Assembly (NCBI RefSeq): GCF_019200975.1
Contig: NZ_JAHTMR010000001.1
Span: forward strand, 637,400-701,399
From: Pseudomonas sp. PD9R
Lineage (GTDB): Bacteria > Pseudomonadota > Gammaproteobacteria > Pseudomonadales > Pseudomonadaceae
Reading direction: 5' to 3'
Length of the DNA: 64,000 nucleotides
Below are positions 24,199 to 43,764 of this stretch, one piece after another (the stretch's first letter is position 1; each line of letters starts with the position of its first letter). Under the pieces are notes generated by a model. It was not told where the DNA came from. It did not search any database and saw nothing but the letters and a program-made list of their open reading frames with translations. The translations under genes were made by a program, and so were the position numbers.

Positions 24199-24561
24199 TT
24201 ATCCAAGAATGAAATACACCTTGCGCACCGCCGTGAGGTTTTCCCAGGTGCCGCGAAATCCCGCGGCGACCACGAACGAAGAGCCAGGGCCAAAGGTACG
24301 ACTGACGCCATGCTCGTCGGTCAAGCGCGCAGTGCCTTCGAGGATGTGACACAGCTCGTCGTAGTCGCACTGGCAACGTTCCAGGTGCGGACCGGCCTCC
24401 CAAATACCGGCTACGGCGTTTTTCTGCGGCGCCAGAAAATGTCGCCAGCTGCGGCTGCGATAAGGCGCATCGACCAGCGCCGGGTCGTTGATTTCCAGTT
24501 CTTTGGGCAGCAGGTCCGGGTTGGCGAAGTCGATGATGTGCTGGGGCAGGGCGGTGGACAT
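24199..24561 (-). CDS. Small cupin protein (DUF861-like), copy 1
   Basis: 120 aa from an ATG preceded by GGAGACTCGC. It is a single cupin barrel: CQCDYDELCHILEGTARLTDEHG and FGPGSSFVVAAGFRGTWENL match the (S)-ureidoglycine aminohydrolase-type cupin_3 domain. The same layout recurs in two more copies at 33881 and 34392. It lies 13 bp downstream of the PuuB-like oxidase, and such cupin/amine-oxidase pairs are frequent in Pseudomonas polyamine loci. The function is not known; it may bind a carboxylate or amine intermediate. Confidence 0.85.
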   Translation of the reverse strand: MSTALPQHIIDFANPDLLPKELEINDPALVDAPYRSRSWRHFLAPQKNAVAGIWEAGPHLERCQCDYDELCHILEGTARLTDEHGVSRTFGPGSSFVVAAGFRGTWENLTAVRKVYFILG

Positions 24562-24574
24562 GCGAGTCTCCGGA

Positions 24575-25972
24575 TCAAGAATCGAAGCCGATGCCAAAGG
24601 CATCGAAGGTTTTGAGCAAAAGGTCGCGGTGGCCATCGCGGTCTTCGCGGGCCAGTGAGCGCTGTGCCATTTTTACCCCCGCAAAGCGCAACGGTTCTGG
24701 CGGGAAGCGAAACGGCGCCTTGGAGGTCATCAGCAGCTCGGTTCGCTCCGTGCGTTCGCCGGCCAGCAAGTCGAGCATGTTCAGCGCCGCGAAACGGCTG
24801 GCCGATACGCCTTGCCCGGTGAAGCCGAGGGCATAGGCAACACGGCCCTGCATTGCACAACCGGTGAACATCGTCGTGCGCGCGGAGGTATCGATGATCC
24901 CGCCCCATGCGTGGCTGAAACGGACCTCGCGCAATGATGGAAAGGCTTGCCGAAACTGCTCGGCGAGGCGGTTGAAGCTTTCCGGTCTTTGGGTCAGTGC
25001 TTCGTCGCGGCGACCGCCGAAGTGATAGATCGCATCAAAGCCGCCCCAAAGAATGCGGTTGTCGGCGGTCTTGCGCAGGTAGTGGAACTGGTTGCCTGAG
25101 TCGGCGATGCCGTAGCGTCCGGTCCAGCCGATGGCTGTCAGTTGGGCATCGCTCAGCGGCTCGCTGACCAGGGTGTAGTCGTAGACCGGAATCACGCTGG
25201 AGGCCAGGTGGCCAAGCAACGGCGGGGCGATGTTGGTGGCGAGGGCAACGTGCCCGGCGCTCATGTCGCCATCGGCAGTGCGCAGGCGCAAAAGGTTTTT
25301 GCCCTCCATTAGCTCCAGCACCGGGCTTTGCTCGAATAGTCGGATGCCTTGTGCAAGGCAGACCCGGCGCAGTTCGGCGGCCATTTTTGCCGGGTTGAGC
25401 AGGGCGTAGTTAGGTTCGAACACCCCCGCACCATAGAGCGGAGAGTCGAGCTTCCTGGCCAGTTCGCTGCCTTCGAACCATTCGCACTCAATGCCGAATC
25501 GCGCGTAGTTGCGCTGCATCGAGCGCAGACCGTCGATCTGCCAGGGCTGGCTGGCCACGTTCAGTTTGCCTTCGCGCTCGAATTCCACCTGCATGCCGAA
25601 GTGCTGCAGATCGGCGGCCAGTTCGTCTAGATTCTGCCGACCCAGGCGGATCAACTTCTCGGCTTCCTGTGGCCAGCGTTTGAGCGCATTGGAGACGCCA
25701 TGGGAGATGCTGGGTGCGCAGAAACCGCCGTTGCGTCCGCTGGCTTCGCCACCACAGCGACGTGCCTCGATGATTGTGATGTTCAGGGTCGGCGAGCGTC
25801 GGCGAGCCAGCAGGGCCGTCCACAAACCGGTGAATCCGCCACCGACAATGGCCAGGTCGCATTCCAGGCTACCGGCCAGAGATGATGCGGTCGGAGCTGG
25901 TGCGACGGTGTCCTGCCAGAACGGGTGAGGCTGGATGTTGTGGAGCGAATCGTGGCACGGTTGCGACGTCAT
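24575..25972 (-). CDS. PuuB/PauB-like FAD amine oxidoreductase
   Basis: 465 aa. After about 40 residues (HNIQPHPFWQDT) comes the FAD motif VGGGFTGLWTALLARRR (about 43-58), then GGEASGRNGGFCAPS and the C-terminal AYALGFTGQGVSASRFAA. This is the gamma-glutamylputrescine/polyamine oxidase branch of the DAO superfamily, which deaminates a primary amine (free or gamma-glutamylated) to an aldehyde. It is followed by a cupin and preceded by a glycosyltransferase on the same strand. The aldehyde could go to the dehydrogenase at 35796 or 43765. Confidence 0.88.
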   Translation of the reverse strand: MTSQPCHDSLHNIQPHPFWQDTVAPAPTASSLAGSLECDLAIVGGGFTGLWTALLARRRSPTLNITIIEARRCGGEASGRNGGFCAPSISHGVSNALKRWPQEAEKLIRLGRQNLDELAADLQHFGMQVEFEREGKLNVASQPWQIDGLRSMQRNYARFGIECEWFEGSELARKLDSPLYGAGVFEPNYALLNPAKMAAELRRVCLAQGIRLFEQSPVLELMEGKNLLRLRTADGDMSAGHVALATNIAPPLLGHLASSVIPVYDYTLVSEPLSDAQLTAIGWTGRYGIADSGNQFHYLRKTADNRILWGGFDAIYHFGGRRDEALTQRPESFNRLAEQFRQAFPSLREVRFSHAWGGIIDTSARTTMFTGCAMQGRVAYALGFTGQGVSASRFAALNMLDLLAGERTERTELLMTSKAPFRFPPEPLRFAGVKMAQRSLAREDRDGHRDLLLKTFDAFGIGFDS

Positions 25973-26010
25973 TCAGGAGCTCCGGTGGTGAATCGAGCAG
26001 TCAGAGGATT

Positions 26011-26082
26011 AAAAGATCGCAGCCTTCGGCAGCTCCTACATGGAAATGCGCACACCCTGTAGCTGCCGCAGGCTGCGATCTT
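26011..26082. repeat. Paired inverted REP element, GATCGCAGCC type
   Basis: Arms AAAAGATCGCAGCCTTCGGC and CCGCAGGCTGCGATCTTGTC flank a 20-bp centre. It ends one base before the glycosyltransferase stop codon at 26084 and may separate that gene's expression from the downstream oxidase. Confidence 0.87.
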
Positions 26083-26083
26083 G

Positions 26084-27367
26084 TCAGGCGTCGGGCAGCG
26101 CCAGAATCGCCCGTGCAGCAATGTCCGTGCCGCGAGTCGCCTGCATGCTCCGGCTGAACGCTTGCAGACGCTGTTTCATCACCTGGTCAGCCAGCAATTG
26201 TTCGAGGGCTGCGGGCAATGCGGCCAGCGGATTGGCGAAGCGTGGCAGGTAGCGACCGACACCGGTTTCCTCGGCGCGCGCGGCATTGTCGTGGCCGTCC
26301 CAGCAGTAAGGAATGATCAGCGACGGCAAGCCGAAGTACAGCGCCTCACAGAAGCTGTTGTTGCCGCCGTGATGGATGAACAGCTCGCATTCCTTGAGCA
26401 CCGCGGGCTGTGCAAACCAGCTGTCGAGGTACACGTTGTCCGGGACGGTGGTGTACATGTCGCGGTAGGCGCCGACATTGATCAGGAAGCGATAGGGCAA
26501 GGTTTCGATAGTGTTGATCAACCGCTTCATCATGTCGGTGTCGGCGGCGCCGAGGCTGCCGAAGCTGATGTAGATCAGCGGTGCTTCGTTGTGCCGTGGA
26601 AAGTCCGGAACAATGTACGGCGCTTCGCGGCGCACGCAGCCGTCGAGGTAGACATAGCGCTGCGGGTCCAATGGTTGACTGCGTTCATAGCGCACCGGCG
26701 TCGGTGACAGCAGCAAATTGAGCCAAGGCGAATCGACGAGGAATTGGCCGGGCGGGCAGGGAGCCGTGCCGTTGCTGGCAAGAAACTGCGAAAAGCGTTC
26801 ATGGGCCGGTGCGACGGCTTTCAAGTAATGATCGTTAAAACGTTCACGTTCTTCTGCTTCGCCGCTCAAGCATCCTGACAAATAGGGCGGCACGTTGGCG
26901 TCCGGCAATTCGGTTTCAGCGCAGGACACCATCCGCACCCAAGGGCAGCCGGCGTTGGCGATGGCCGGGAACATGACCACGTTGTCGAGGACGATAACGT
27001 CCGGCTTCAGTCGGCTGAGCAACTGCTGCAGCGGTTTTTCCGCTTCGATGGCTGTGTCGATGATCGCGTCCCAGGCCGGTGCTACATAGCTGTCGATCTG
27101 TGCCAGCGGGGTCTGGTCGAAGTAGGGAATGTTGCGCTCGATGAAGCGCTCCCAGTAGTGCTGGTGTTCCGCCGCCGACAATGGGCTGGCTTGCGGGATC
27201 GGGTACTCATCGAAACCGTATTCGGCGAAGAGCCCCTGAAAATGTTCGTGGCAGATGAACACGGGTTTGGCGCCCAGTTCACGCAGCGATTGGGCGATGC
27301 CAATGCAGTTCAGGGCCGCGCCGAAACTGGCTTCCGGAAACAGGGCGATCAGTTTTTGTTTTTGCAT
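26084..27367 (-). CDS. GT1-type UDP-glycosyltransferase (MGT-like), copy 1
   Basis: 427 aa. The N-terminal acceptor domain begins LIALFPEASFGAALNCIGIAQ. The C-terminal donor domain has IYISFGSLG, the UGT-like nucleotide-sugar motif FIHHGGNNSFCEALYFG and YCWDGHDNAARAEETG. It transfers a sugar from a nucleotide sugar to a small hydrophobic or polar acceptor, with inverting chemistry expected for the family. A paralog of identical length lies at 32605 across the GntR gene. A GT in an amine-catabolic setting is unusual; it may mask a toxic substrate or make a glycosylated product. Confidence 0.88.
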   Translation of the reverse strand: MQKQKLIALFPEASFGAALNCIGIAQSLRELGAKPVFICHEHFQGLFAEYGFDEYPIPQASPLSAAEHQHYWERFIERNIPYFDQTPLAQIDSYVAPAWDAIIDTAIEAEKPLQQLLSRLKPDVIVLDNVVMFPAIANAGCPWVRMVSCAETELPDANVPPYLSGCLSGEAEERERFNDHYLKAVAPAHERFSQFLASNGTAPCPPGQFLVDSPWLNLLLSPTPVRYERSQPLDPQRYVYLDGCVRREAPYIVPDFPRHNEAPLIYISFGSLGAADTDMMKRLINTIETLPYRFLINVGAYRDMYTTVPDNVYLDSWFAQPAVLKECELFIHHGGNNSFCEALYFGLPSLIIPYCWDGHDNAARAEETGVGRYLPRFANPLAALPAALEQLLADQVMKQRLQAFSRSMQATRGTDIAARAILALPDA

Positions 27368-27384
27368 GGCGATGCCATATCCAT

Positions 27385-27401
27385 GGCGGGGAAACCCCGC
27401 C
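27385..27401. other. Short GC-rich hairpin in the glycosyltransferase leader
   Basis: GGCGGGG-AAA-CCCCGCC is a perfect 7-bp stem with a 3-base loop, 18 bp before the glycosyltransferase start. No T-tract follows on the minus strand, so it is more likely a leader element or weak pause site than a terminator. An A/T-rich stretch (27430-27458) beside the GntR stop may form the actual terminator. Confidence 0.45.
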
Positions 27402-27466
27402 GTTCCTGAAGATGATTGGATGCTGTCTTATTTTATAAAAAAAATCATCATGTTTTTTGAGGTGCC

Positions 27467-28399
27467 TCAGCGGCGACCGAACAGATGGCCCTGAGGGATA
27501 CCGCGGTTTGCGGTTTGCGGGCGTTGCGCGGCGCTCAGGCGCAGGTGCAGGCGTAGCAGGTCGGCGGCGATCTCCATCTGCCCGCGTTCGATGTGCGCAA
27601 TGATTTGCAGGTGTTCGCGCAGCGCCTCTTGCAAGCGGTGCACGCTGACCGATGGCAGCAGATTCGGCAGGCGTCGCAGGCTCTGATGTTGGAGCAGGGC
27701 GTCGCCAATAAAGCGGTTGCCGCAGCTCTGGGCGAGGAGTTCGTGGAAGCTGATGTCCAGCTCACGGAACTGCTGGGTATCGAAGTCTTCTACGGGTCTT
27801 GAAAGCAGCGATTGCATGGCTCCGCGCAGCAATGCCAGGCGTTGTGGGTCGGCATTGAAGTGCGAGCCGAGCAGTGCCTCCGGCTCCAGAATCAGGCGGA
27901 ATTTCAGGCTTTCTTCAAGTGCCGCGAGGCTGTTCAGTGAGGGGCGAAACAGCCAGGACTGGCCGGGACCACGCTCGATGGCCTGACTTTCGCTCAGTTG
28001 TTGCAGGGCTTTTTGTGCCGCGGGGCGGCCAATGTCGTAACGACGCATCAGCTCGCTGATGCTGATGCTGTCGCCCAGGCGCCCGGCCATGCGATCGCGC
28101 AAGACCGAGGCGGCCAGCTCTTCCTCTTCCGCTTGCGGCAACGCGGCGTTGAACGCCTGGCCTGCTGGCGCTGGGAGCAGGCGATAGCCTTTGCCGGCTT
28201 CATGGCTCAGCAGGTTTTCTTCCAGCAACACTTTCAGTGCGCCGCGAATCAGCGTGCGCGAGACCTGAAAGGTTCGCGCCAATGCCTGCTCGGCAACCGG
28301 GTCGCCGGCCACCAGCCCGGCTTCCTGTGTGTGCTCCAGAATCCGCCGGGCAAGTTCGAGGTGGTTGCTGCGGGGTTTTTTCTCGGCTGTTGTGCTCAA
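27467..28399 (-). CDS. GntR-family regulator with two winged-helix domains and FCD domain
   Basis: 310 aa from a TTG at 28399 with GAGATAAG upstream. The first winged helix (about 12-72) reads ARRILEHTQEAGLVAGDPVAEQALARTFQVSRTLIRGALKVL. A second one (about 98-155) reads LGDSISISELMRRYDIGRPAAQKALQQLSESQAIER. The FCD effector domain follows (about 165-290), with acidic/His residues for metal and carboxylate binding (EALLGSH, DISFHELL, LREHLQIIAHIERG). It divides two divergent gene sets containing the paralogous glycosyltransferases and probably represses both. Confidence 0.85.
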   Translation of the reverse strand: MSTTAEKKPRSNHLELARRILEHTQEAGLVAGDPVAEQALARTFQVSRTLIRGALKVLLEENLLSHEAGKGYRLLPAPAGQAFNAALPQAEEEELAASVLRDRMAGRLGDSISISELMRRYDIGRPAAQKALQQLSESQAIERGPGQSWLFRPSLNSLAALEESLKFRLILEPEALLGSHFNADPQRLALLRGAMQSLLSRPVEDFDTQQFRELDISFHELLAQSCGNRFIGDALLQHQSLRRLPNLLPSVSVHRLQEALREHLQIIAHIERGQMEIAADLLRLHLRLSAAQRPQTANRGIPQGHLFGRR

Positions 28400-28485
28400 G
28401 CGTCTTATCTCGGTTCGGTCGCTTCGGACTCAGGTGCTCATCTTATGTCATGCGTTGCGCAATCGTCAGGGTGTACATCTCCAAT

Positions 28486-28503
28486 GCTGCGGCAGCGCCT
28501 ACA
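28486..28503. repeat. Short REP remnant
   Basis: CTGCGGCAGCGCCTACAAGG matches one arm of the GATCGCAGCC-type REP but lacks the other arm, in the GntR/ABC intergenic region. Confidence 0.5.
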
Positions 28504-28556
28504 AGGTTTGCGTTGCCTGTGTGTGCCGGGCGTACGTGATGAATCGGAAAAAAGCG

Positions 28557-28585
28557 TTGACATCTTTTCTTGCTGGTCCTAATTT
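28557..28585 (+). promoter_or_regulatory. Candidate sigma-70 promoter of the amine ABC operon
   Basis: TTGACA (28557-28562), a 17-bp spacer and TAATTT (28580-28585) form a good promoter ahead of the binding-protein gene, giving a leader of about 75 bp. An A-tract (28588-28596) and ACACATGT follow, where the adjacent GntR protein could bind. Inferred from consensus match. Confidence 0.5.
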
Positions 28586-28666
28586 CTAAAAAAAAACACA
28601 TGTAGTCGTTTCTCGTTTAGCCGTACTGCCTTCGAAACAACAATAAACAATCGTCGGGTGAGTATT

Positions 28667-29722
28667 ATGAGAAAGCTGAAAGACGTGCTGTGCATAGGGT
28701 TGGCCGTTTCCCTGGCGATCGCTGCGCAGGCTGCAAGCGCGAAAGACATGGTGATTTCCATCTGGGACGGCTACATGGCCCCGGATGCGCTGGACAAGTT
28801 CAAGGCCGCCAGCGGCGTTGAAGTCGACAAGTCCCTGCACGCCACCAACGAAGAAATCATGGGCAAGCTCATGGCGTCCGGTGGTGAAGGTTATGACGTG
28901 GTCTTTGTCTCCTCGCCCTTCGCTGAAATCCTGCACAAACAAGGGCTGCTGGCCGACATCGATCCGGTCAAGGTGCCCAACCTCAAAAACCTCTACCCCG
29001 AAGCCAGTCGCCTGGAATATGACCCCGGCAACCACTTCTCCGTGCCTTACACCTGGGGCACGACCGGCATCTGCTATCGCACCGACAAGGTGGCGCCAGC
29101 GCCGCAAAGCTGGAACGATCTGCTCAATCCAAGCGATGCGCTCAAAGGCAAGGTCACGATGTTGGCCACCGATCGCTGGATGCTCGGCGCCGGTTTCCTT
29201 GCCAAGGGTTGGTCGGTCAACGACAGCGATCCGGCTCAGATCGCCGCGGTTCGCGATCAACTGATCGCCACCAAAAAACGCATTCTCGCCTTCGACGACA
29301 CCACGTTCTATTCCAAGCTCGCTTCCGGTGAGTCGCTGATGGCGCACGCCTGGGATGGCTGGTGCAACTACGGCACCCAAGCCAATGCGGCGATCAAATT
29401 TGTGGTGCCCAAGGAAGGTTCCGACCTGTGGGTGGACACCATGGTCGTGCTGAAAAGCTCGAAGCATCAGGACGAAGCCTTCAAGTTCGTCAACTTCATG
29501 CTGGCCAAGGAAAACCACGCCTGGGTCGCGGAAAACATCCTCTACAAAGTCCCCAACCAAGCCGCCATGGCCGACCTCTCCCCGGACCTGCTCAAGCAAT
29601 ACCCCAACTTGACCATCGCCCCGAGCGAGCTGGTAAAAATGGAACAATTGCGCGATCTGGGCGGCACCACGCAAAAGGCCTACACCCGGGCCGTCACCGA
29701 AATCATGGCTGCACAGAACTAA
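28667..29722 (+). CDS. Polyamine-type ABC transporter substrate-binding protein (PotD/PotF-like)
   Basis: 351 aa from the ATG at 28667; a GTG three codons upstream is possible. Signal peptide LCIGLAVSLAIAAQAASA is followed by the PotD-like start MVISIWDGYMAPDALDKFKAASG. Conserved regions include GYDVVFVSS, YTWGTTGICYRTDKV and AHAWDGWCNYG. It captures an amine in the periplasm for the following permeases. Whether the ligand is putrescine, spermidine or something else cannot be told. It is the first gene of a nine-gene same-strand run to 37304. Confidence 0.9.
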   Translation: MRKLKDVLCIGLAVSLAIAAQAASAKDMVISIWDGYMAPDALDKFKAASGVEVDKSLHATNEEIMGKLMASGGEGYDVVFVSSPFAEILHKQGLLADIDPVKVPNLKNLYPEASRLEYDPGNHFSVPYTWGTTGICYRTDKVAPAPQSWNDLLNPSDALKGKVTMLATDRWMLGAGFLAKGWSVNDSDPAQIAAVRDQLIATKKRILAFDDTTFYSKLASGESLMAHAWDGWCNYGTQANAAIKFVVPKEGSDLWVDTMVVLKSSKHQDEAFKFVNFMLAKENHAWVAENILYKVPNQAAMADLSPDLLKQYPNLTIAPSELVKMEQLRDLGGTTQKAYTRAVTEIMAAQN

Positions 29723-29836
29723 GCCTCAAAAAACGTAAGCCGCGCAACACGTAAGCCGTACACAACCGAGGCATGCCCCGCATGCCTTCGCCACGCTCGC
29801 AGGCCGCCTCTGTTCGGAGGCGGGAGGATATGGGTA

Positions 29837-30697
29837 ATGAGTGCTTTGCATGCTGACAGGCGCCTGTCGGCCTGGCTTCTTGCGCCCGGCTTCGGCTGGC
29901 TGCTGACTTTTCTGGTGATTCCTTGCTTGCTGGTGCTGGTCTACAGCTTCGTCGAGCGCGGTGCTTATGGCGGTATCGACTGGCTGTTTACCTGGGAAAA
30001 CTACCAGCGCGCGTTTGACCCGCTGTACCTCGGGATCTTGCTCAAATCGGCAAAAATCGCGGGTCTCGCCACGGTGTTTGCGGTGCTGATCGGTTACCCG
30101 GCAGCGTATGCGATCGCCCGTGCGCCACGGCGTCGGCAAGCGGTGTTTCTGTTTCTGGTGATGTTGCCGTTCTGGAGCAACTACCTGATCCGCACCTATG
30201 CCTGGATCGTCCTGCTCAATCGCGAAGGTTTGATCAACCGCCTGCTGCAACTGTTCGGCTACAGCGGCGAACCCATCAGCTTGCTGTACACCGAATCGTC
30301 GGTAGTGCTGGGGCTGGTCTACAACTACATCCCGTTTGTGATCCTGGCGATTTTCTCTTCGCTGTCGCGCATCAATAACGAACTCTGGGACGCCTCGAAA
30401 GACCTCGGTGCTTCGGGCTGGATGACCTTTCGACGAATCATTCTGCCGCTGAGCGTGCCCGGCATTGCCGCCGGCGCGGTGTTTGTCTTCGTCCTCAGTA
30501 TCGGCAACTTCATCACCGCCGACTTGCTGGGCGGCAAGCAGGTGCAGATGGTCGGCAACCTGATCTACTCGCAGTTCCTCACGGCGCGGGACTGGCCGTT
30601 CGGCGCAGCGCTGAGCTTCTTCCTGATCGCCATCATGCTGATCCTGTTGTTCATCCAGGCACTGGTGGCCCGCCGTGCAGAAGGGGCGCGCTCATGA
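29837..30697 (+). CDS. ABC transporter permease (PotB-like)
   Basis: 286 aa with six hydrophobic helices. It has the EAA loop NELWDASKDLGASGWMTFRRIILPLSVPGI typical of polyamine permeases and the N-terminal PGFGWLLTFLVIPCLLVLVYSF. It has a strong ribosome site (GGAGGATATGGGTA). Its end overlaps the next permease by 4 bp (ATGA), so the two subunits are translationally coupled. Forms the membrane channel with the 30694 gene. Confidence 0.92.
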   Translation: MSALHADRRLSAWLLAPGFGWLLTFLVIPCLLVLVYSFVERGAYGGIDWLFTWENYQRAFDPLYLGILLKSAKIAGLATVFAVLIGYPAAYAIARAPRRRQAVFLFLVMLPFWSNYLIRTYAWIVLLNREGLINRLLQLFGYSGEPISLLYTESSVVLGLVYNYIPFVILAIFSSLSRINNELWDASKDLGASGWMTFRRIILPLSVPGIAAGAVFVFVLSIGNFITADLLGGKQVQMVGNLIYSQFLTARDWPFGAALSFFLIAIMLILLFIQALVARRAEGARS

Positions 30698-31500
30698 GTC
30701 AACCACGTTCTGTCGGCGGTACAGTGCTCAGTGCGCATCTGGGGTTGGTCTACGCCTTTCTCTATGTGCCGATCCTGGTGTTGATCCTGTTGTCATTCAA
30801 TAAGTCCGGTTTGCCGACGGCGTGGGGCGGTGTGTCCCTGAAGTGGTACACGGCGCTGGCGCATAATTCGGCGATTTTGTCGGCGGCACTCAACACCTTG
30901 ATCGTCGCGTTGTCGGCGACCTTCATTGCCTGTGTGCTCGGCACGCTGCTGGCGCTGGGCATCGAGATGCGCCGCAAGGGCGATGATAAGGGGCAAGTGG
31001 TCGACACCTTGCTGATGGCGCCGATGATCATTCCCGACATCGTCCTGGCCATCGCGCTGTTGAGCTTCTTCAACCTGCTCAAGGTTGGATTGGGCCTGCA
31101 CTCGATCATCATCAGCCACGCGGTGTTCAACATCGCTTTCGTCTGTGCGGTGGTGCGCACGCGGCTCAAGCATTTCGACTATTCGATTCTTGAAGCCTCG
31201 ATCGACCTTGGCGCGAGTTGGTTCACCACCTTTCGCCGGGTGCTGTTGCCAGCGATTTTTCCCGGTGTGCTGGCGGGTGGTTTGCTCGCGTTCACCCTGT
31301 CGGTGGACGAATTCATCATCGCCTTTTTCAACTCGGGCTCCGGCCAGGCTTCCACCACGTTACCGATGCAGATCTACGCCATGATCCGTTTCGGCGTGAC
31401 CCCGGAAATCAACGCTCTGGCGACGCTGGTGATGCTGGTCAGCATTACCGCGCTGCTGGCTTCGCAGCGTCTCAACAAGGCTCCTCGCACCCATGAATAA
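30694..31500 (+). CDS. ABC transporter permease (PotC-like)
   Basis: 268 aa with six hydrophobic segments. It has an EAA loop (YSILEASIDLGASWFTTFRRVLLPAIFPGVLAGGLLAFTLSVDEFIIAFF), including the SVDEFIIA signature of PotC-type subunits. It starts within the stop of the first permease and overlaps the ATPase start by 8 bp, so the transporter genes are tightly coupled. Confidence 0.92.
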   Translation: MSQPRSVGGTVLSAHLGLVYAFLYVPILVLILLSFNKSGLPTAWGGVSLKWYTALAHNSAILSAALNTLIVALSATFIACVLGTLLALGIEMRRKGDDKGQVVDTLLMAPMIIPDIVLAIALLSFFNLLKVGLGLHSIIISHAVFNIAFVCAVVRTRLKHFDYSILEASIDLGASWFTTFRRVLLPAIFPGVLAGGLLAFTLSVDEFIIAFFNSGSGQASTTLPMQIYAMIRFGVTPEINALATLVMLVSITALLASQRLNKAPRTHE

Positions 31501-32572
31501 TTCTTCTGCGGTACTTATCCTGGACAAAGTCAGCAAGTCTTATGGCAATGGTCTGGCCGTCGACGAGGTGTCGCTGAACATCCGCGAGAACGAGTTCTTC
31601 GCGCTGCTGGGGCCGTCCGGCTGCGGCAAAACCACGCTGTTGCGGATGCTCGCGGGGTTTGAGACGCCTAGTGGCGGCTGCATCTATCTGGACGGCAAGG
31701 ACATCTCGCCGCTGCCGGCCAACAAGCGTCCGCTGAACCTGATGTTCCAGTCCTATGCGCTGTTCCCCAACATGACCGTACGCAAGAACATTGCCTACGG
31801 CCTGGAAATGGAGCGCTTGCCGGAAGCGGAAATCCGCCGCCGGGTCGATGAAGTGCTGAGCACCGCGCAACTCGGTGAACTGGCCGAGCGCAAGCCGGAT
31901 CAGCTCTCCGGTGGTCAGCGTCAGCGCGTTGCCCTGGCACGGGCGCTGGTCAAGCGACCACGGGTGTTGCTGCTCGATGAACCGCTGGGCGCACTGGATA
32001 AGAAGCTTCGGGAAAAAATGCAGCTGGAACTCAAGCGCCTGCAACTCGAAAGCGGCATAACGTTCATCATCGTCACCCACGATCAGGAAGAAGCGTTGGT
32101 GATGTCTGATCGCATGGCGGTGCTCGACGGCGGCAAGGTCTGCCAGTGCGGCAGCCCGACCGAACTTTACGAAAACCCCAACAGCCGGTTTGTCGCCAAC
32201 TTCATCGGGGTCAGCAATCTGTTTGAAGGTGTTCGTTCAGGGGAGCGCTCGGTACGGGTCAACGGCCAGGAGTTGGTAGTCGAGACCGACGCGCCGCTCG
32301 TGCCCGGTCAATCAGTCGCCGTTGTGGTGCGCCCGGAACGTCTGCAAGTGTTGGGCGAGCAGAGCAGCGATTGCGCCAACCAGGTCAGCGGCAAGATCGT
32401 TGAAATTGCCTACCACGGCCTTGACACCAACGTGCATGTGCAGACGTCGCTCAGCGACAAAGCCTTGATCGTCCGCGTGCCTTCTTCGCAATTCGAATTC
32501 GCTCATTTTGCTATCGGTATGACCATCCGCTTGGGCTGGCAGCCTCGCCATGCCCGTGTTTTGACGCGCTGA
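31493..32572 (+). CDS. ABC transporter ATP-binding protein (PotA-like)
   Basis: 359 aa. Walker A GPSGCGKTT (about 40-48), Q-loop MFQSYALFPNMTV, signature LSGGQRQRVALARAL, Walker B RVLLLDEPLGALD and the switch His in VTHDQEEAL are all intact. The C-terminal third is a TOBE regulatory domain (VVVRPERLQV). It powers the importer. It overlaps the upstream permease and is followed 32 bp later by a glycosyltransferase. Confidence 0.94.
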   Translation: MNNSSAVLILDKVSKSYGNGLAVDEVSLNIRENEFFALLGPSGCGKTTLLRMLAGFETPSGGCIYLDGKDISPLPANKRPLNLMFQSYALFPNMTVRKNIAYGLEMERLPEAEIRRRVDEVLSTAQLGELAERKPDQLSGGQRQRVALARALVKRPRVLLLDEPLGALDKKLREKMQLELKRLQLESGITFIIVTHDQEEALVMSDRMAVLDGGKVCQCGSPTELYENPNSRFVANFIGVSNLFEGVRSGERSVRVNGQELVVETDAPLVPGQSVAVVVRPERLQVLGEQSSDCANQVSGKIVEIAYHGLDTNVHVQTSLSDKALIVRVPSSQFEFAHFAIGMTIRLGWQPRHARVLTR

Positions 32573-32604
32573 ACAATAAAAAGACCAGGCAGGAGTATCT
32601 CTCG

Positions 32605-33888
32605 ATGAAACAGAAAGTGATCGCCTTCTTTCCGGAAGCCGCCTATGGCCCGGCGCTGAACTCAGTCGGTATCGCCCAGGCCTGCGAGGCCCTCGGCCAC
32701 AAAGCCGTGTTCCTGACCGATCCCGGAATGAGCGGGGTGTATGCCGGGTACGGCTTTGAAGAACACATGGTCAACATGTCGGCGCCGATGCCGGCCGAAG
32801 AAATGGCCCGTTACTGGGTCGACTTCATCAACGGCCACATTCCCAACTTCCGCAAGACACCGCTGGAGCAGATCGACAACTACGTGAAGGAGTGCTGGTC
32901 GGCCATCGTCGACACCGCCAAGTGGGCGCAAAAGGACTTGCCAGCGGTGCTGGACAAAGTCAAACCCGATTTGATCTGCGTCGACAACGTGATCCTGTTT
33001 CCGGCGATCAAGCAATACGGCAAGCCATGGGTGCGGATCATTTCCTGCTCGGAAAACGAGATCGAAGACCCGGACATTCCGCCGCACCTGTCGGGCATGA
33101 GCATCGACGACAAGGCCGGTCACGCGCAGTTTCGCCAGCGCTTTGAAGAGGTGGTCGGGCCGATCCACGAAGACTTCAACCAGTTCCTTCAAGCTCACGG
33201 TGAACAGCCGTATCCGCTAGGCACGTTCTTCGAAGCCTCACCCTACATGAACCTGCTGCTGTACCCGGACGCGGTCAAATTCGAACGCCGTCATCCGTTG
33301 CCGGCCGAGCGTTTCCACTACCTGCAAGGCTGTGTGCGGCATGACACGGCGTACGAGATTCCGCAGTTCCGCGCACACAACGACAAACCGCTGTTGTACG
33401 TCAGTTTCGGCAGCCTCGGTTCTGGTGATGTCGACTTGCTCAAGCGCCTGATCACGGCGGTAGGCCAGTTGCCGTATCGCGCGTTGTTCAATGTCGGCGA
33501 GCACCTCGATGAGTACCCGGAGCTGCCGGACAACGTGCAGATTTCCAACTGGTTCCCGCAGCCTTCGGTGATTGCCCAGGTCGATGCGGTGATCCACCAC
33601 GGCGGCAACAACAGCTTCACCGAGTGCCTGTTTTTCGGCAAACCGGCAATTGTCATGTCCTACGTCTGGGACGGTCACGACAACGCCATGCGCGCCGAAG
33701 AAAGCGGACACGGTTTCAAACTCGATCGCTACGACTGGAGCGAAGCGCAGCTGGCGGAAAAACTCGCTGCGTGCCTCAACGACGAGGCGATGCGCCAACG
33801 CTTGCAGCGCACCAGCGCGCAGATGCAATCACGCAAGGGGCCGGCAGACGCGGCGGCCATTCTCGACAAGGTGCTCAACGATGCCTGA
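32605..33888 (+). CDS. GT1-type UDP-glycosyltransferase (MGT-like), copy 2
   Basis: 427 aa, identical in length to copy 1 and clearly homologous throughout (shared VIAFFPEAAYGPALNSVGIAQ start, LLYVSFGSLG, and donor-site HHGGNNSFTE at residues 331-340, WDGHDNAMRAEESG). It has AGGAG before its ATG. It sits between the importer and two cupins in one operon, so the acceptor is probably the imported molecule or its product. The sugar donor and acceptor are unknown. Overlaps the next cupin by 8 bp. Confidence 0.88.
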   Translation: MKQKVIAFFPEAAYGPALNSVGIAQACEALGHKAVFLTDPGMSGVYAGYGFEEHMVNMSAPMPAEEMARYWVDFINGHIPNFRKTPLEQIDNYVKECWSAIVDTAKWAQKDLPAVLDKVKPDLICVDNVILFPAIKQYGKPWVRIISCSENEIEDPDIPPHLSGMSIDDKAGHAQFRQRFEEVVGPIHEDFNQFLQAHGEQPYPLGTFFEASPYMNLLLYPDAVKFERRHPLPAERFHYLQGCVRHDTAYEIPQFRAHNDKPLLYVSFGSLGSGDVDLLKRLITAVGQLPYRALFNVGEHLDEYPELPDNVQISNWFPQPSVIAQVDAVIHHGGNNSFTECLFFGKPAIVMSYVWDGHDNAMRAEESGHGFKLDRYDWSEAQLAEKLAACLNDEAMRQRLQRTSAQMQSRKGPADAAAILDKVLNDA

Positions 33889-34249
33889 TCAATCCACCAC
33901 GGCGGGTTTTACGCCGTACCTCGAAGACGTCAGCAGCCGCACCGATCTGGTGGACTGGGGCGTGCAGAGCGACGCCGTCGAAGGTGTCTCGCACTCCAGC
34001 GGACGCCTGCTGTTCAAAGGCCCGAACAACAGCCCGGAAACCGGGTTGTGGGTGTGCACGCCGGGGCGCTGGCGACTGTCGATTCCCCGTGACGAGTTGT
34101 GCCATTTCATCGCGGGTGACGCGACGTACCGTAATGACAATGGCGAAGTGATTGAAGTGCGCCCTAACACCCTGGTGCTGTTCCCGGCCGGCTGGACTGG
34201 CGAATGCCACGTCCGCGAAACCCTGCGCAACGTTTACATGCTCGCTTGA
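33881..34249 (+). CDS. Small cupin protein (DUF861-like), copy 2
   Basis: 122 aa from the ATG at 33881, overlapping the glycosyltransferase stop by 8 bp. The frame is open further upstream, but that part overlaps the GT in another frame. The cupin core is DELCHFIAGDATYRNDNGEVIEVRPNTLVLFPAGWTGECHV, the cupin_3 pattern ending in RNVYML. It is closely related to the copies at 24199 and 34392. Confidence 0.86.
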   Translation: MPDQSTTAGFTPYLEDVSSRTDLVDWGVQSDAVEGVSHSSGRLLFKGPNNSPETGLWVCTPGRWRLSIPRDELCHFIAGDATYRNDNGEVIEVRPNTLVLFPAGWTGECHVRETLRNVYMLA

Positions 34250-34259
34250 GCCTGCCCTT

Positions 34260-34361
34260 TGTCGGAGCGAGCTTGCTCGCGATGGGCGTTAACGATGACG
34301 AGGGCTGTCTGAATGAACGCGGTGCCCTTACGTTCTTCGCGAGCGAGCTCGCTCCTACAAG
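34260..34361. repeat. Paired inverted REP element between two cupin genes
   Basis: Arms GTCGGAGCGAGCTTGCTCGC and GCGAGCGAGCTCGCTCCTAC flank about 60 bp. It sits inside the operon and could attenuate or stabilise the mRNA between cupins 2 and 3. Confidence 0.88.
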
Positions 34362-34391
34362 TTGAGCCTGACTTTTTTCTGGAGAAGATCA

Positions 34392-34736
34392 ATGACTACC
34401 CCGTTTCTGTACAACCCGCTGAGCATCACTGACGTCAAGGATTGGGGCGTGATCCCGACCATGCTCGAAGGTGAGTCCCGTGTCTCTGGCGTGGTGCTGC
34501 ACAAAGGCCCTGAAGGCCAGTCCGAATGTGGCGTGTGGATCTGCACACCGGGCAAATGGTTTTGCCATGTCACCAGTGACGAGTTCTGCCATTTCCTCGA
34601 AGGCCGCTGCACCTACGTGCACGAATCCGGCGAAGTGATCGAGATCAAGCCTGACACCGCAGCTTTCTTCCGCAAGGACTGGAAAGGCGTGTGCACCGTC
34701 CACGAGACCGTAAAAAAGGTCTACATGATCCGGTGA
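34392..34736 (+). CDS. Small cupin protein (DUF861-like), copy 3
   Basis: 114 aa from an ATG preceded by GGAGAAGATC. The core EFCHFLEGRCTYVHESGEVIEIKPDTAAFFRKDWKGVCTVHETVKKVYMI aligns throughout with copy 2, so the two arose by local duplication. Members of this fold use a metal-bound or carboxylate-binding barrel; the extra Cys (GRCTY, GVCTV) are a feature of this copy. It is followed 5 bp later by the kinase. Confidence 0.86.
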   Translation: MTTPFLYNPLSITDVKDWGVIPTMLEGESRVSGVVLHKGPEGQSECGVWICTPGKWFCHVTSDEFCHFLEGRCTYVHESGEVIEIKPDTAAFFRKDWKGVCTVHETVKKVYMIR

Positions 34737-34741
34737 TTGTC

Positions 34742-35815
34742 ATGACAGAAGCTCTTGCTTCACTGCCCACCCGTGAAGACCAGCGCGCAGCCTTTCTGGC
34801 ACGTGCCGGCTTCGCGGGCGCGCGGCAGGTTGCGTTGCCGGCGGATGCCTCGACCCGGCGTTATTTCCGTCTCGACGGCGCCGGGTTGTTGCTGATGGAT
34901 TCGCCACCCCACAGCGAGCCAATTGGCCCGTTTGTTCAGGTTGCCCGGCAATTGCAGCAGCTGGGCTTGTCCGCCCCGGCTCTGCAGCAGGTCGACGAAG
35001 AAGCCGGGTTGGCGTTGATCGAAGATTTCGGTCACGACACCTATACCCGGTTACTGGCGGCCGGGCATCCGGAACGCGAGTTGTATCGCCTGGCGGTGGA
35101 TACGTTGGTGGCATTGCATGGCGCGACGCCTGGCGCGGAACTGGCGGCTTATGACGCTCGACAATTGAGTGACGAGTGCGCGCTGTTCATCGATTGGTAT
35201 GCGCCGCTGTTGATTGGCAAGGAGCCGGCGCTGGCGTTGCGCGAGTCGTACCTGGCGCTGTTTGGCAATGTCTTTGTCGATGTCGCGCAACGTCGCGAAG
35301 CGTTGGTGCTGCGTGACTTCCACGTCGACAACCTGATGCTGCTGGAAGGGCGCGAAGGCGTAGCGGCCTGCGGTTTGCTGGACTTTCAGGACGCACTGGT
35401 CGGCGCAGCCGCGTATGACTTGATGTCGCTGCTCGAAGACGCTCGTCGCGACATCTCGGAAGGGCTTCGTGTGGCGTTGCTCAGTCACTATCTGGTGCAG
35501 CGCCCGGAACTCGACGCCCCGCGTTTTCTTGAGGATTACCGTCGCCTGTCCGCCCAGCGTCACGCCAAGGTGTTGGGGATTTTCGTGCGCCTGGCCGGGC
35601 GCGATGGCAAGCACGGTTACCTGGCTCATCTGCCGCGCACCCTCGGCCTGTTTGTTCGAGCGCTGAACACCGAAGCCTTGGCGCCGCTGCGCGAATGGCT
35701 CGACCGGCACCTGCCGGGCTGGCGCGAGCCATTACCCGCCGAGACCCTGGCGATGTTGCGCGACACCCCTTATCGATTGGTTCAAGGATCAGCCCATGGC
35801 CACGTTCAATACTGA
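34742..35815 (+). CDS. AmgK-like sugar/amine kinase (aminoglycoside phosphotransferase fold)
   Basis: 357 aa. The N-lobe has LPADASTRRYFRL, matching the DAS.RRYFR segment of AmgK anomeric N-acetylmuramate/N-acetylglucosamine kinases. The catalytic loop is LRDFHVDNLMLL (Asp), and the metal-binding DFQDA follows. So it is an ATP-dependent small-molecule kinase, presumably of a sugar or glycoside. It is unlikely to be the housekeeping AmgK, because no MurU uridylyltransferase follows and it is embedded in the glycosyltransferase/cupin operon. Its last 20 bp overlap the aldehyde dehydrogenase start. Confidence 0.82.
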   Translation: MTEALASLPTREDQRAAFLARAGFAGARQVALPADASTRRYFRLDGAGLLLMDSPPHSEPIGPFVQVARQLQQLGLSAPALQQVDEEAGLALIEDFGHDTYTRLLAAGHPERELYRLAVDTLVALHGATPGAELAAYDARQLSDECALFIDWYAPLLIGKEPALALRESYLALFGNVFVDVAQRREALVLRDFHVDNLMLLEGREGVAACGLLDFQDALVGAAAYDLMSLLEDARRDISEGLRVALLSHYLVQRPELDAPRFLEDYRRLSAQRHAKVLGIFVRLAGRDGKHGYLAHLPRTLGLFVRALNTEALAPLREWLDRHLPGWREPLPAETLAMLRDTPYRLVQGSAHGHVQY

Positions 35816-37304
35816 CACCGCCTTACGTTTTATCAACGCCGAGTTCCTGCCACTGACCAGCGAGCGCGTGCGCGAAGTGCTGGACCCGGCGACCCTGCAA
35901 CCGGTCGGGCAGGTCGGCCTGTGCAACGAAACCGACGTGCAGGCGGCCATTGATGCCGCGACTGCCGCACAAAAACAGTGGCGCCAGGTCGATGCCAAAA
36001 GTCGCGCCGCTATCCTGCACAAACTGGCCAACGCCATTGAGCAGGACGTCGCCTGCAACCGTGAGGTCGCGCGCCTGATGACCCTGGAAATGGGCAAGCC
36101 GTTTCCGGAAGCCATGGGCGAGTTGGCTAACTGCGCGCCGATCTTCCGCTACTACGCGGAAATGGCCCGCGACGACGCCGGCAAGGTCGCCGGCACCACG
36201 CAAATCGGCTCCTTCCAGCATGTGCGCTATGAGCCGTATGGCGTCAGCGTGCACATCATGCCGTTCAACTTTCCGATTCTGCTGATGTGCTGGACGGTCG
36301 CTGCCTCGCTGGCGGCGGGCAACGCCTGCATCGTCAAACCGGCGGAAGCCACGACCTTGTGCACCCTCAAGTTCATGGAGCATTTCAGGGCGTTGTTGCC
36401 GGGCCTGATGTCTTGCGTGCCCGGCGATGCCGCCACTGCGCAGTTACTGGTGAAGTCTTCGGGTACTCACGCCGTCGCCTTTACCGGCAGCGTCGCTGCG
36501 GGCCAAGCGGTGGCAGTGGCCTGTGCCCAGCAGATGAAACCCAGCGTGATCGAGGCCGGGGGCAGCGATCCGTTGATCATCTCCAGACACGCACCGCTTG
36601 AAGTCGCCGCTGCCGGTGCAGTGACCGCCGCGTTCCACCTGAGTGGGCAGATCTGCACCTCGGCTGAACGCTTCTACGTGGTCGACGAGATTCACGATGA
36701 GTTCGTCGCACGGTTCGCCGAGCGCACCCGTGCACTGCGTATCGGTCATGGCCTGGAGCGTACGGAAATCGGGCCGATGGTCAGCGAAGCTGCGCGTAAT
36801 AAAGTCATGCGCCTGGTTGACGACGCACTGGCCAAAGGCGCGACGCTGGTCTGCGGTGGGCGCATACCGCCGCAGCACACCGTGGGCTGGTTTTATGAGC
36901 CGACCATTCTCACCGGCGTCACCGCTGAGATGGCGATTCTTCAGGAGGAGTGCTTCGGGCCAGTAGCGGCGATCTGTCGGGTCAGCGATTTCGACGAAGC
37001 CGTACGCCGGGCCAACGATTCGCCATTCGGTCTCGGCGCGTCGTTGTTCTCCACCGATCTTGCCGAAGCCATGGAGGCCGCTGATCGTCTGGAGGCCGGG
37101 ATGGTCTGGGTCAATAACCCGCTGATAGACAATGACGCGCTGCCGTTTGGTGGCTGGAAGATGTCCGGCCTGGGACGTGAGTTGGGGCGTCAGGGTCTTG
37201 AAGCGTTCCGTCGCTCGAAAATGGTCATCATTGACCACCAACCGAAGATTCAGGACTGGTGGTATCCGTATGCCGACGATGTGTTTTATCGCGACCCGGC
37301 TTGA
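35796..37304 (+). CDS. Aldehyde dehydrogenase family protein
   Basis: 502 aa. The ALDH fold has NAD-binding MPFNFPILLMCWTVAASLAAGNACIVKPAE, general-base Glu in SVIEAGGSDP and catalytic Cys in SGQICTSAERF, with late EECFGPVAAI and WVNNPLIDNDALPFGGWKMSG. The Glu motif EAGGSDP instead of ELGGKSP and the resemblance to GabD-type semialdehyde dehydrogenases suggest an omega-amino or hydroxy aldehyde substrate. It overlaps the kinase gene by 20 bp and ends the operon, converging on the phosphonate-type transporter 12 bp away. Confidence 0.9.
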   Translation: MATFNTDTALRFINAEFLPLTSERVREVLDPATLQPVGQVGLCNETDVQAAIDAATAAQKQWRQVDAKSRAAILHKLANAIEQDVACNREVARLMTLEMGKPFPEAMGELANCAPIFRYYAEMARDDAGKVAGTTQIGSFQHVRYEPYGVSVHIMPFNFPILLMCWTVAASLAAGNACIVKPAEATTLCTLKFMEHFRALLPGLMSCVPGDAATAQLLVKSSGTHAVAFTGSVAAGQAVAVACAQQMKPSVIEAGGSDPLIISRHAPLEVAAAGAVTAAFHLSGQICTSAERFYVVDEIHDEFVARFAERTRALRIGHGLERTEIGPMVSEAARNKVMRLVDDALAKGATLVCGGRIPPQHTVGWFYEPTILTGVTAEMAILQEECFGPVAAICRVSDFDEAVRRANDSPFGLGASLFSTDLAEAMEAADRLEAGMVWVNNPLIDNDALPFGGWKMSGLGRELGRQGLEAFRRSKMVIIDHQPKIQDWWYPYADDVFYRDPA

Positions 37305-37316
37305 GGCGTTGCAACG

Positions 37317-38084
37317 TCAGGCCTTGACCCAGCGTTGACGACTCCAGCTGCTCAACGAATCAACGGCGAACACCAGCAACAGCATGGCCAGGATCACCGT
37401 GCTGGCCTGCGCTTCCTGGAACAGGCTGAGGCTGACATAGAGCATCTGACCCAAACCGCCGGCACCGACAAAACCGAGCACGCTGGCCATGCGGATGTTG
37501 TTCTCCCAGCGGTACAGGATGTAGGCCAGCAGCTGTGGCAGCAGGTTGGGCAGGGTGCCGTAACAGAACGCCCACACGGCATTGCCACCCTGCAAGCGGA
37601 TCGCCTCGGCCGGTTCGGGCGGGGTGTTTTCCAGCGCTTCGGCGAACAATCGGCCAAGCACGCCGGTGGTGTGCAGCGCCAATGCCAGGGTGCCGGCATT
37701 GGGGCCGAGCCCGGCGGCCAGCACCATCAACGCGGCCCACACCAGTTCCGGCACCGCACGCAGGGCGTTGAGCACCAGACGCGATGCGCTTTTGCAAGGC
37801 CAGCCGAATCGTCCCGCGGCGGGCAGTGCCAACAGCAGGCCGAACACCGCCGCGAGCAGGGTGCCAAGGGCAGACATGGCGATAGTTTCCAGCGCGCCAT
37901 GGCCGATGGCTTGCAGATGACTTGTGCTCAAATCCGGGCTGAGAAATCGCTGTGCATAGGTGCCCATCTGCTTCAGGTTGCTGCTGCCGCCCAACTCGCC
38001 GAGATCGATGCCCAGATAGACAAACGAGGCCACGATCGCGGCGACGATGCCGAGGAGCAGCGCCAGATTGATCAGGCGATTCAT
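37317..38084 (-). CDS. PhnE-type ABC permease, second subunit
   Basis: 255 aa from the ATG at 38084, which overlaps the stop of the first permease (ATGA). The frame is open upstream, but that overlaps the other permease. It has about six hydrophobic helices and the EAA-type motif [53 protein letters not shown], characteristic of phosphonate-type PhnE. It is homologous to its neighbour, so the importer uses a heterodimeric permease. Last gene of a four-gene operon. Confidence 0.88.
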   Translation of the reverse strand: MNRLINLALLLGIVAAIVASFVYLGIDLGELGGSSNLKQMGTYAQRFLSPDLSTSHLQAIGHGALETIAMSALGTLLAAVFGLLLALPAAGRFGWPCKSASRLVLNALRAVPELVWAALMVLAAGLGPNAGTLALALHTTGVLGRLFAEALENTPPEPAEAIRLQGGNAVWAFCYGTLPNLLPQLLAYILYRWENNIRMASVLGFVGAGGLGQMLYVSLSLFQEAQASTVILAMLLLVFAVDSLSSWSRQRWVKA

Positions 38085-38908
38085 GTCAGCCTCCAGCGCA
38101 GCAGGCGACTGAGTTGATCGGCAAACAGCACCAGCACGAGGAAGGTCAGCAACAGGCTGGCGACTTCGCCGCTGGCGAACATGCGCAATGACAGGTCCAT
38201 TTGCTGGCCCAGACCACCGGCACCGACGAAACCCATCACTACCGAGGCGCGGATTGCGCATTCCCAGCGGTACACCGTGTACGACAGCAGTTCCGCCGCG
38301 ACATTGGGCAGAATTCCGTAGCAAAAAGCGGCGAGCCGACCACTGCCTGCTTGCAGCAAGGCGTGGGCTGGACGCTGGTCGACCGATTCGAAAATTTCCG
38401 CGTAGACCTTGCCCAGCATGCCGCTGTAGGTAATCGCGATGGCCAGCACACCAGCTGTCGGGCCGAGTCCGACCGCGCGTACAAACAGCAAGGCCCAGAC
38501 GATTTCCGGCACGCTGCGCAGGAAGATCAGCACGCCGCGCACCGGCCAGCGCAGCAGTTGGCCCCAGTAACCCGGACGACCGCCACGGGAAGCGGCTGAT
38601 AGCGACAGCGCCCGACTGGCCAACAGGCTTGCAGGCACTGCCAAGAGCAACGCCAGTGCCATGCCGGCCGTGGCGATGGCCAGCGTCTGCAGGGTCGCTT
38701 GCAATAGCAGGTCAATGAATTCCTTGTCATGGGCCGGTGGCCAAAACGCCGAAACGAACCGGCCAATTTCGCTCCGGCTATCACCCGCCACCAGTACGCT
38801 CAAGTCCAACTCGCTGAAGTGAATGCCTGGCCATAGCAGGACAATCGCCAGCAGGCTGAGCAGCAGACGGGGCAGGGCGGCGGGATCGCGGGTATTGCGC
38901 GTCAGCAT
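38081..38908 (-). CDS. PhnE-type ABC permease, first subunit
   Basis: 275 aa with about six hydrophobic helices. It has the same motif as its neighbour ([54 protein letters not shown]). Its start overlaps the ATPase stop by 7 bp. In the phosphonate-type family the substrate can be phosphonate, phosphite, or oxyanions such as selenate; the binding protein here resembles the putative selenate type. Confidence 0.88.
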
Positions 38909-39699
38909 CGGGGAATCTGCACGTGCAAGGGCGTCGAAGGCGGTGGTGAGGAATGCAGTTGTTCGTTGGCATAGAGCTTGTCGAGCCGTTCGCGGTCGAC
39001 TTTGTCGGCGGGTAGGTCGAACAGGATCTGCCCGTCACGCAAACCGATAATCCGTGAAAAGTGCGCCAAGGCCAGTTCCACCGCATGCAGGCTGGCGACC
39101 AGGGTGACGTTGTGCTCCCGGGCGTGCCGGCACAGGACAGAAAGCGTGTGCTCGGCCAACACCGGGTCCATCGCCGACACCGGTTCATCGGCCAGCAATA
39201 CTTCGGGTGCCTGATACAACACGCGGGCAATGCCAACGCGCTGTAGCTGACCGCCGGACAGTTGCTGGCACTGGGCGAACAACTTGTCGTTCAGGTCCAG
39301 CCTGCTCAATGCCGCGTGTGCGCCCGGAATATCCAGTGGATGCAGCAGGTTGAGCAGGCTTTTGCCCAATCCCCACTGACCAATTTTCCCGGCGAGCACC
39401 GCAGTCACCACACGCTGGCGTGGCGGCAGCGGAGGTGCTTGATGCACCAGGCCGATACGCGCACGTAAACGCTGACGCTGGCGGGCAGACAATTGCCATG
39501 CGTGCTCGCCCAGCACTTGCAACTCACCGCCACTCGGACGCAGGGCGGTGGCCAGCAGGTTGAGCAGGCTCGACTTACCCGCGCCGGATGGGCCGATGAT
39601 GGCGACCTGTTCATTGGCGCCGATGTGCAGGTCCAGGCTACGCAACGCCTGGACGCCATTGGCGTGGGTAAGGCTGACGCCGCTCAGACGCAAGGTCAT
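38902..39699 (-). CDS. PhnC-type ABC transporter ATP-binding protein
   Basis: 265 aa. Walker [13 protein letters not shown], signature [15 protein letters not shown], Walker [14 protein letters not shown] and a switch His ([10 protein letters not shown], the PhnC-type form) are present. It starts within the stop codon of the binding-protein gene and overlaps the permease. It energises the phosphonate/oxyanion-type importer. Confidence 0.9.
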
Positions 39700-40547: not shown

Positions 40548-40689
40548 GGAAGTTCTCCGTTTTGGTAACGCAAGAATGTCGATGCGCCTGCGGCACGCTG
40601 AAGGCTGAACAGGCGCCTTGTGAGGGTAGACGAAACCCGAAGAAAACGGAGAACCGGGCGCTGATACCGATCGGTTAAAACACAAAACC

Positions 40690-42371: not shown

Positions 42372-42503
42372 GCTGTGTGCCCCTTCAGGTTTTGATACGC
42401 GCCCCTCCGGGTTGCCGGAAGGGATGGCTTCAACCCCTTGTCGTACTGCTCCTGTTCCAACCGATACAACCTGTCCATGCGGCGCGTTGCCGTTTCTACC
42501 ATT

Positions 42504-43761: not shown

Positions 43762-43764
43762 GGC

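Follow-up and report, generated by a model that had tools for sequence, protein, structure and literature searches.

The Puu pathway uses glutamate as a protecting group in the oxidation of amines, and glycosyltransferases of the GT1 type use an N-terminal histidine as base. AmgK, in the part of PMC5371407 available to us, is an anomeric kinase for N-acetylmuramic acid (MurNAc) and N-acetylglucosamine (GlcNAc), and the accessible part of PMC9993111 lists five contacts common to homologues of the binding protein PotD. Here we set beside these systems a gene island at positions 24199–37304 of a 64,000-nucleotide stretch of the Pseudomonas sp. PD9R genome (contig NZ_JAHTMR010000001.1, positions 637,400 to 701,399; hereafter the window), in which a Pot-type importer lies with two GT1-type glycosyltransferases, GTa and GTb, and with small cupins. 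Our tentative proposal is that the island breaks down an imported amine by way of a temporary sugar, probably GlcNAc, which would later be recycled. The proposal is supported by a conserved unit of genes, a near-universal cupin, a nucleotidyltransferase (NTP transferase) gene linked to the kinase gene, the fusion of that NTP transferase to an aldehyde dehydrogenase (ALDH), and a kinase with a mutase in archaea. Further support comes from amine-type neighbours in variant loci (genes resembling glutamine synthetase (GS), oxidases dependent on flavin adenine dinucleotide (FAD), and an arginase-family gene with a permease in L046) and from the contacts kept in the binding protein.

An initial annotation, made from the DNA letters alone, had named these genes, their layout as two arms around one GntR gene, and their overlapping or near-adjacent order. 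Pfam and NCBIfam confirm the genes and the layout: 13 genes form two divergent arms flanking a single GntR/FCD gene. Four junctions show overlaps of 4 to 20 bp between neighbouring genes, and a fifth has one of 62 bp if cupA begins at its first ATG; the starts given for cupB, cupC and the kinase gene are putative. The genome is 6.88 Mb long, and its GTb shares up to 97% identity with Pseudomonas loci. The features of the island, which include an ATP-binding cassette (ABC) transporter, are as follows.

24199..24636, minus strand: cupA, a small EutQ-like cupin (Cupin_3; Pfam PF05899, 63.8 bits); the true start may be 24561
24575..25972, minus strand: FAD-dependent oxidoreductase (DAO; PF01266, 180 bits), a predicted amine oxidase
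26084..27367, minus strand: GTa, a GT1-type glycosyltransferase paralogue (PF06722, PF00201)
27467..28399, minus strand: GntR/FCD regulator between the arms (PF00392, PF07729)
28658..29722, plus strand: solute-binding protein of the PotD/PotF type, a predicted amine binder (PF13416)
29837..30697, plus strand: ABC permease in the PotB-like position (PF00528)
30694..31500, plus strand: ABC permease in the PotC-like position (PF00528)
31493..32572, plus strand: PotA-like ABC ATPase with a TOBE domain (PF00005, PF08402)
32605..33888, plus strand: GTb, a GT1-type glycosyltransferase and the anchor of the conserved unit (PF06722)
about 33881..34249, plus strand: cupB, a small EutQ-like cupin that overlaps the 3' end of GTb (PF05899 in frame; putative start)
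34392..34736, plus strand: cupC, a small EutQ-like cupin (putative start)
about 34742..35815, plus strand: AmgK-like sugar kinase of the APH fold family (PF01636, 77.9 bits), a predicted maker of sugar-1-phosphate, optional
35796..37304, plus strand: ALDH (PF00171, 490.8 bits)

Relatives of the island were sampled through GTb. Genome contigs, scanned with an alignment of GTb, gave at least 560 confirmed loci; the best 80 (pseudomonads and alphaproteobacteria by their titles), four plasmid loci, six more stretches and nine distant stretches (L134–L142) make up a set of 99, which covers kinase, importer and NTP transferase genes where they accompany GTb. Close strains in this set are not independent, and L098 and L119 look like one genome. 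In 55 loci the surroundings were fully in view (more than 7.5 kb before and more than 4.5 kb after GTb), and 49 of these keep GTa, the GntR gene, the binding protein, both permeases, the ATPase, GTb, ALDH and a cupin; the exceptions are L040, L046, L061, L073, L074 and L089. A cupin is present in all 55 and in 96 of the 99, the three misses (L070, L088 and L097) falling where contigs break off within 350 bp past GTb. Queries with cupB and cupC match each other, and they are counted as any cupin only. With eight core genes and a cupin kept in so many related loci, the arrangement is beyond chance, and its invariant pair is GTb and the cupin. The glycosyltransferases thus belong with the amine-type genes and are not bystanders, as had been suggested at the outset; the gene set assembled at that time stands for the glycosyltransferases, importer, cupin and ALDH, which form the core, and not for the FAD oxidase (21 of 99 loci by two FAD queries) or the AmgK-like kinase (35 of 99), both of which are accessory.

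Other parts of the island vary. The cupA gene is optional, usually lies beside the FAD gene and occurs in 14 of the 80 scan loci; a GS-like gene occurs in 7 of 99 loci, and L046 holds an arginase-family gene and an amino acid permease. Three loci from one other family (L117, L139 and L140) carry the binding protein, permeases, ATPase, GTb, two cupins, ALDH and FAD oxidase in a single-strand row. Rhizobial-type islands have a saccharopine-dehydrogenase-like gene after ALDH (for example L104:15650–16837), seen in 31 of 99 loci with one genome counted twice. In several minimal loci the neighbouring genes gave no useful clue, and the upstream gene pairs of P. nitroreducens-type loci, considered as glutamine synthetases, were rejected when the one representative scanned proved to be DUF1254/DUF1214. 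In a broader sample, with the genome's own match included where it belongs, a match was found at 1e-40 in 19 of 198 family genomes, at 1e-60 in 8 of 398 phylum genomes, and, within the class of G493, at 1e-80 in 11 of 289 genomes. The island is common to pseudomonads and rhizobia, and its core trio of GTb, cupin and ALDH is also found in two haloarchaea.

These two archaeal loci are plasmid-borne, in Natrialba magadii and Natronorubrum aibiense. In both, the order of GTb (60% and 59% identity, respectively), cupin and ALDH is that of the window, and next come a ROK-family kinase gene, read from the opposite strand, and a phosphoglucomutase/phosphomannomutase gene. A Pot-type ABC transporter, FAD oxidoreductases and an aminotransferase lie near the trio in both, and the Natrialba locus further includes genes for a GS-like protein and a class I amidotransferase; the FAD genes of these loci, and one in L142, were missed by the two FAD queries. 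The archaeal kinase and mutase could yield a sugar-1-phosphate by way of the 6-phosphate, a product that an AmgK-type kinase would make in a single step. Because two unlike gene sets would thus serve one product, we infer that the sugar, once released, is turned back into a nucleotide sugar, and this is our main argument. In the nine distant loci L134–L142 the GTb-cupin pair mostly occurs by itself, an argument that these two genes form the functional core; the importer is found in two of these loci and ALDH in three, and in L141 the cupin adjoins the second of two glycosyltransferase copies. More distant glycosyltransferase relatives, free of the island, occur on a Streptomyces plasmid (35% identity) and on a P. 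frederiksbergensis plasmid. On the latter (L105:10001–10995) a GTa-like gene lies in pieces (69%) beside type VI secretion genes.

Clues to the proposed recycling step come also from the bacteria. Many Pseudomonas islands have, 3' of ALDH, a GlmU-type NTP transferase gene from which most of the acetyltransferase part is missing; the copy in L045 has 321 amino acids, short of full bifunctional length, and matches the GlmU model at 392.3 bits (cut-off 505). Such proteins carry the motifs of uridylyltransferases, and in an alignment these motifs agree with those of the genome's own GlmU. The gene occurs in 20 of the 99 loci, always with the kinase; the kinase occurs without it in 15, one of which (L027) sits on a contig ending there, and the NTP transferase gene never occurs without the kinase. 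Outside Pseudomonas the counts are 2 loci with both, 3 with the kinase only, none with the NTP transferase gene only and 62 with neither (Fisher p = 0.0045, uncorrected for relatedness). In L075 the gene lies in the other arm and encodes 445 amino acids with hexapeptide repeats, and in L099 it lies between a second ALDH gene and the FAD gene. We examined 13 loci in which it adjoins a second, betaine-aldehyde-dehydrogenase-like ALDH gene. In six (L024, L025, L026, L029, L031 and L032) the two are fused in one frame of about 750 codons, in six they are in different frames, and in L030 they are in frame with two stops in the stretch as cut. Pfam finds both the NTP transferase and the ALDH domain in the L024 fusion (L024:14772–17024, about 750 amino acids), and among the 120 best public matches one cluster of 215 sequences (P0121) has both domains.

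The kinase itself matches two AmgK models below their cut-offs (250.8 bits against 500, and 152.3 against 550) and is only 38% identical to the genome's other relative. Because the kinase is AmgK-like and a GlmU-type gene accompanies it in those 20 loci, it more likely acts on the released sugar than on the amine. The initial annotation had proposed that an amine is glycosylated, perhaps phosphorylated, before oxidation, or that a glycosylated amine is made and recycled; glycosylation before oxidation followed by recycling is probably the best reading of the gene set, and phosphorylation of the amine is not favoured. The choice of GlcNAc as the sugar follows from the resemblance to AmgK and GlmU only.

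GTa and GTb are paralogues, 48% identical. An AlphaFold model of GTb (pLDDT 91.7) has a predicted GT-B fold, and its best structural match is the spider-mite enzyme UGT203A2 (7mco; TM 0.90, 28% identity); macrolide-type glycosyltransferase models match below cut-off. All 90 GTb and all 66 GTa relatives retain the donor-site residues HHGGNN and those at the WDG.DN positions, and the position of the GT1 histidine is Pro in 89 and Met in one of the 90 GTb relatives and Ala in all 66 of GTa; the aligned mite enzyme retains the histidine. An amine acceptor could dispense with the histidine base, so that Pro or Ala here would suit such an acceptor. The nearest solved structures are spider-mite UGTs (7lvy and 7mco, 28% identity). 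Mite UGTs reportedly derive from bacteria, and the branch of GTb may lie near their donor.

For the importer, the binding protein matches the PotD model at 157.1 bits (cut-off 582), PotF at 143.1 (cut-off 636) and the solved structure 4eqb at 158. It appears to keep four of the five PotD contacts in the accessible list: W36, W232 and D260 in all 74 relatives and W258 in 73 of 74. The numbering was transferred by hand through an alignment with PotD. The region matching D168 and E171, which we take to be PotD residues, reads T-D-R-W in 74 of 74. It is likely, judging from these residues, that one end of an amine is bound as in PotD and the other differently; therefore a diamine, an amino alcohol, a guanidino amine and a conjugate are all possible ligands.

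The FAD oxidase had at first been called PuuB-like; an FAD oxidase of the DAO family it is, and the likeness to PuuB is at most putative, its best NCBIfam match being TIGR03329 (228.8 bits, cut-off 632.8) with no PuuB model among the matches listed. The best solved structure matches at 30.5 bits, and is no close relative. The ALDH of the window has BADH as its best NCBIfam model (387.6 bits, cut-off 668.6), and the genome's nearest counterparts to the second ALDH (75% and 64%) sit outside the window.

Put together, the proposed route would run as follows. The Pot-type transporter, whose genes are all present, would bring in a small amine, and GTb, with its predicted fold and cupin partner, would use a UDP (uridine diphosphate)-sugar to form a glycosylamine on an amino group; GTa might take a second amine as acceptor or run the reaction in reverse. 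The sugar would stop the aminoaldehyde from cyclising while the FAD oxidase (here 24575–25972) turned the free amine end into an aldehyde and ALDH turned that into an acid. Release of the sugar, the weakest step, might be spontaneous, or due to the cupin or to reverse glycosyltransferase action. The AmgK-like kinase would then form a sugar-1-phosphate, and a GlmU-type uridylyltransferase the UDP-sugar; the latter enzyme is an island gene in some relatives and in this genome would perhaps be the housekeeping GlmU. A bolder form of the proposal, which we regard as possible yet doubtful, is that a catalytic nucleotide-sugar cycle drives amine catabolism, UDP-GlcNAc being remade by an anomeric kinase and a GlmU-type uridylyltransferase that is at times fused to ALDH, and that bacteria and haloarchaea share this logic with different recycling enzymes, as a sugar counterpart of gamma-glutamylation.

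Several observations weigh against the temporary-sugar route. The claim that the glycosyltransferases always occur with the island holds in the 49 loci above and fails in, for example, L040, L046, L073 and seven of the nine distant loci, where the GTb-cupin pair lacks an importer; ALDH is missing in six of those nine. A pair standing alone counters a purely amine-bound role, and may have another job there. By the two FAD queries, 78 of 99 loci lack the FAD gene, and 64 of 99 lack the AmgK-like kinase, two of the latter being the archaeal loci with ROK kinase and mutase. Within Pseudomonas the link of kinase and NTP transferase gene is not significant (18 loci with both, 12 with kinase only, none with NTP transferase gene only, 2 with neither; p = 0.18, uncorrected for relatedness). 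The window has no dedicated uridylyltransferase gene, its genome holding the housekeeping GlmU only (39% identity), and no enzyme was recognised for the sugar-release step. The fifth contact on the PotD list appears to be lost, with Trp in 74 of 74 relatives, and loss of activity is an alternative meaning of the missing GT1 histidine. The NTP-linked ALDH (ALDH2) was dropped as proof of polyamine use, as a 72% identical enzyme lies in a hydroxyproline-type operon on a Caballeronia plasmid (L145:4782–10525); the ALDH2 group therefore serves several pathways.

The solitary GTb-cupin pairs would fit ordinary amine catabolism by importer, oxidase and ALDH, with glycosyltransferases and cupins trapping toxic amines or aldehydes by glycosylation, and the detoxifying activity of related GT1 enzymes (the sub-cut-off macrolide-type models, the mite UGTs as nearest structures) points the same way. 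GTb is, however, more constant than the oxidase or the importer, and the NTP transferase gene and its ALDH fusion link sugar-nucleotide supply to oxidation, so that we consider this explanation unlikely. A ready-made sugar-amine conjugate might instead be imported and split by a reverse glycosyltransferase reaction or by the cupin, its sugar passing to the cell-wall pool through kinase and uridylyltransferase. The altered second end of the binding protein could fit a conjugate, and both enzymes resemble AmgK and GlmU of cell-wall salvage (available part of PMC5371407), but no glycosidase was seen and many islands with both glycosyltransferases lack the NTP transferase gene and the kinase; salvage of this kind is less likely still. 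Since GT1 enzymes usually make products, and since the genes occur in halophilic archaea and marine bacteria, the imported amine might also be built into a glycosylated amine or amino acid serving as osmolyte, signal or antibiotic. This seems improbable, as an exporter is not among the conserved partners, and the importer, oxidases, ALDH and the archaeal GS-like gene and amidotransferase look catabolic. That GTa and GTb are glycosyltransferases no longer, binding a nucleotide sugar or metabolite in some other role, would accord with the replaced histidine in 90 of 90 and 66 of 66 relatives and is very improbable given the donor-site positions that all of them keep.

Around the island, a row of genes on the minus strand (40806–46639), about 4–9 kb past its end, comprises a GS-like ligase (45167–46639), an ALDH (43765–45180), an iron alcohol dehydrogenase (42601–43761) and an amino acid permease (40806–42371). 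The row may encode a gamma-glutamyl pathway acting on an amino alcohol, in which case a second way of protecting amines would lie close to the island. Between this row and the island lies a phosphonate-type ABC transporter (37317–40766, minus strand) with a binding protein (PF12974), an ATPase (PhnC model 201.3 bits, cut-off 266.1) and two permease genes. A phosphonate function for the island was considered, prompted by this transporter, by the best NCBIfam match of the FAD enzyme, a putative aminophosphonate oxidoreductase, and by a match of the regulator to phnR_burk; it was set aside, as the scores are far below cut-offs and phn queries matched in L053 only (phnC, 32%). Another DAO-family FAD oxidoreductase lies at 15529–16698 (minus strand); its best model, sarcosine oxidase beta, gives 127.9 bits and so falls short of the cut-off. 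An anti-phage role was set aside, as the four proteins tried had no PADLOC match.

A search of open-licence PMC papers for glycosylated polyamines or this gene set found nothing relevant. If the temporary-sugar route is correct, bacteria and archaea would oxidise amines under the protection of a sugar that is reused, not spent, a step for which that literature yielded no description. It would give a role to a branch of GT1, to the adjoining EutQ-like cupins, to AmgK-like kinases outside cell-wall recycling and to the NTP transferase-ALDH fusion, and the puzzle of glycosyltransferases in amine gene clusters would become a direct assay.

Compared with described systems, the island shares the four-gene layout of the PotABCD and PotFGHI importers, and its binding protein keeps their aromatic box and one Asp but scores far below the PotD and PotF cut-offs, with the other end of the pocket altered. 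GTb has the same predicted fold and donor-site motif as UGT203A2 and the macrolide GT1 enzymes (MGT), from which it differs in its low identity to the former (28%), its replaced N-terminal histidine and its fixed pairing with a cupin. With AmgK-MurU cell-wall recycling, as the available part of PMC5371407 describes it, the island shares a sugar kinase of the anomeric type and a nucleotidyltransferase that would remake a UDP-sugar; here, however, the latter is GlmU-type, both genes belong to an amine-type island, the NTP transferase domain is sometimes fused to ALDH, and the kinase reaches just half the bit score set for AmgK (250.8 against 500). No glutamate-amine ligase lies within the island of the window, the GS-like gene at 45167–46639 being about 8 kb off, and Pfam recognised no gamma-glutamyl amidase (class I amidotransferase) there; other loci were not searched for the amidase, which is present near the Natrialba trio. 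The Puu pathway and the Streptomyces GlnA4 route (accessible part of PMC6529630) proceed by import of an amine, addition of a group, oxidation with an ALDH step and removal of the group, as the island would likewise do, but in the island a glycosyltransferase takes the place of the glutamate ligase and genes for recycling the sugar are added.

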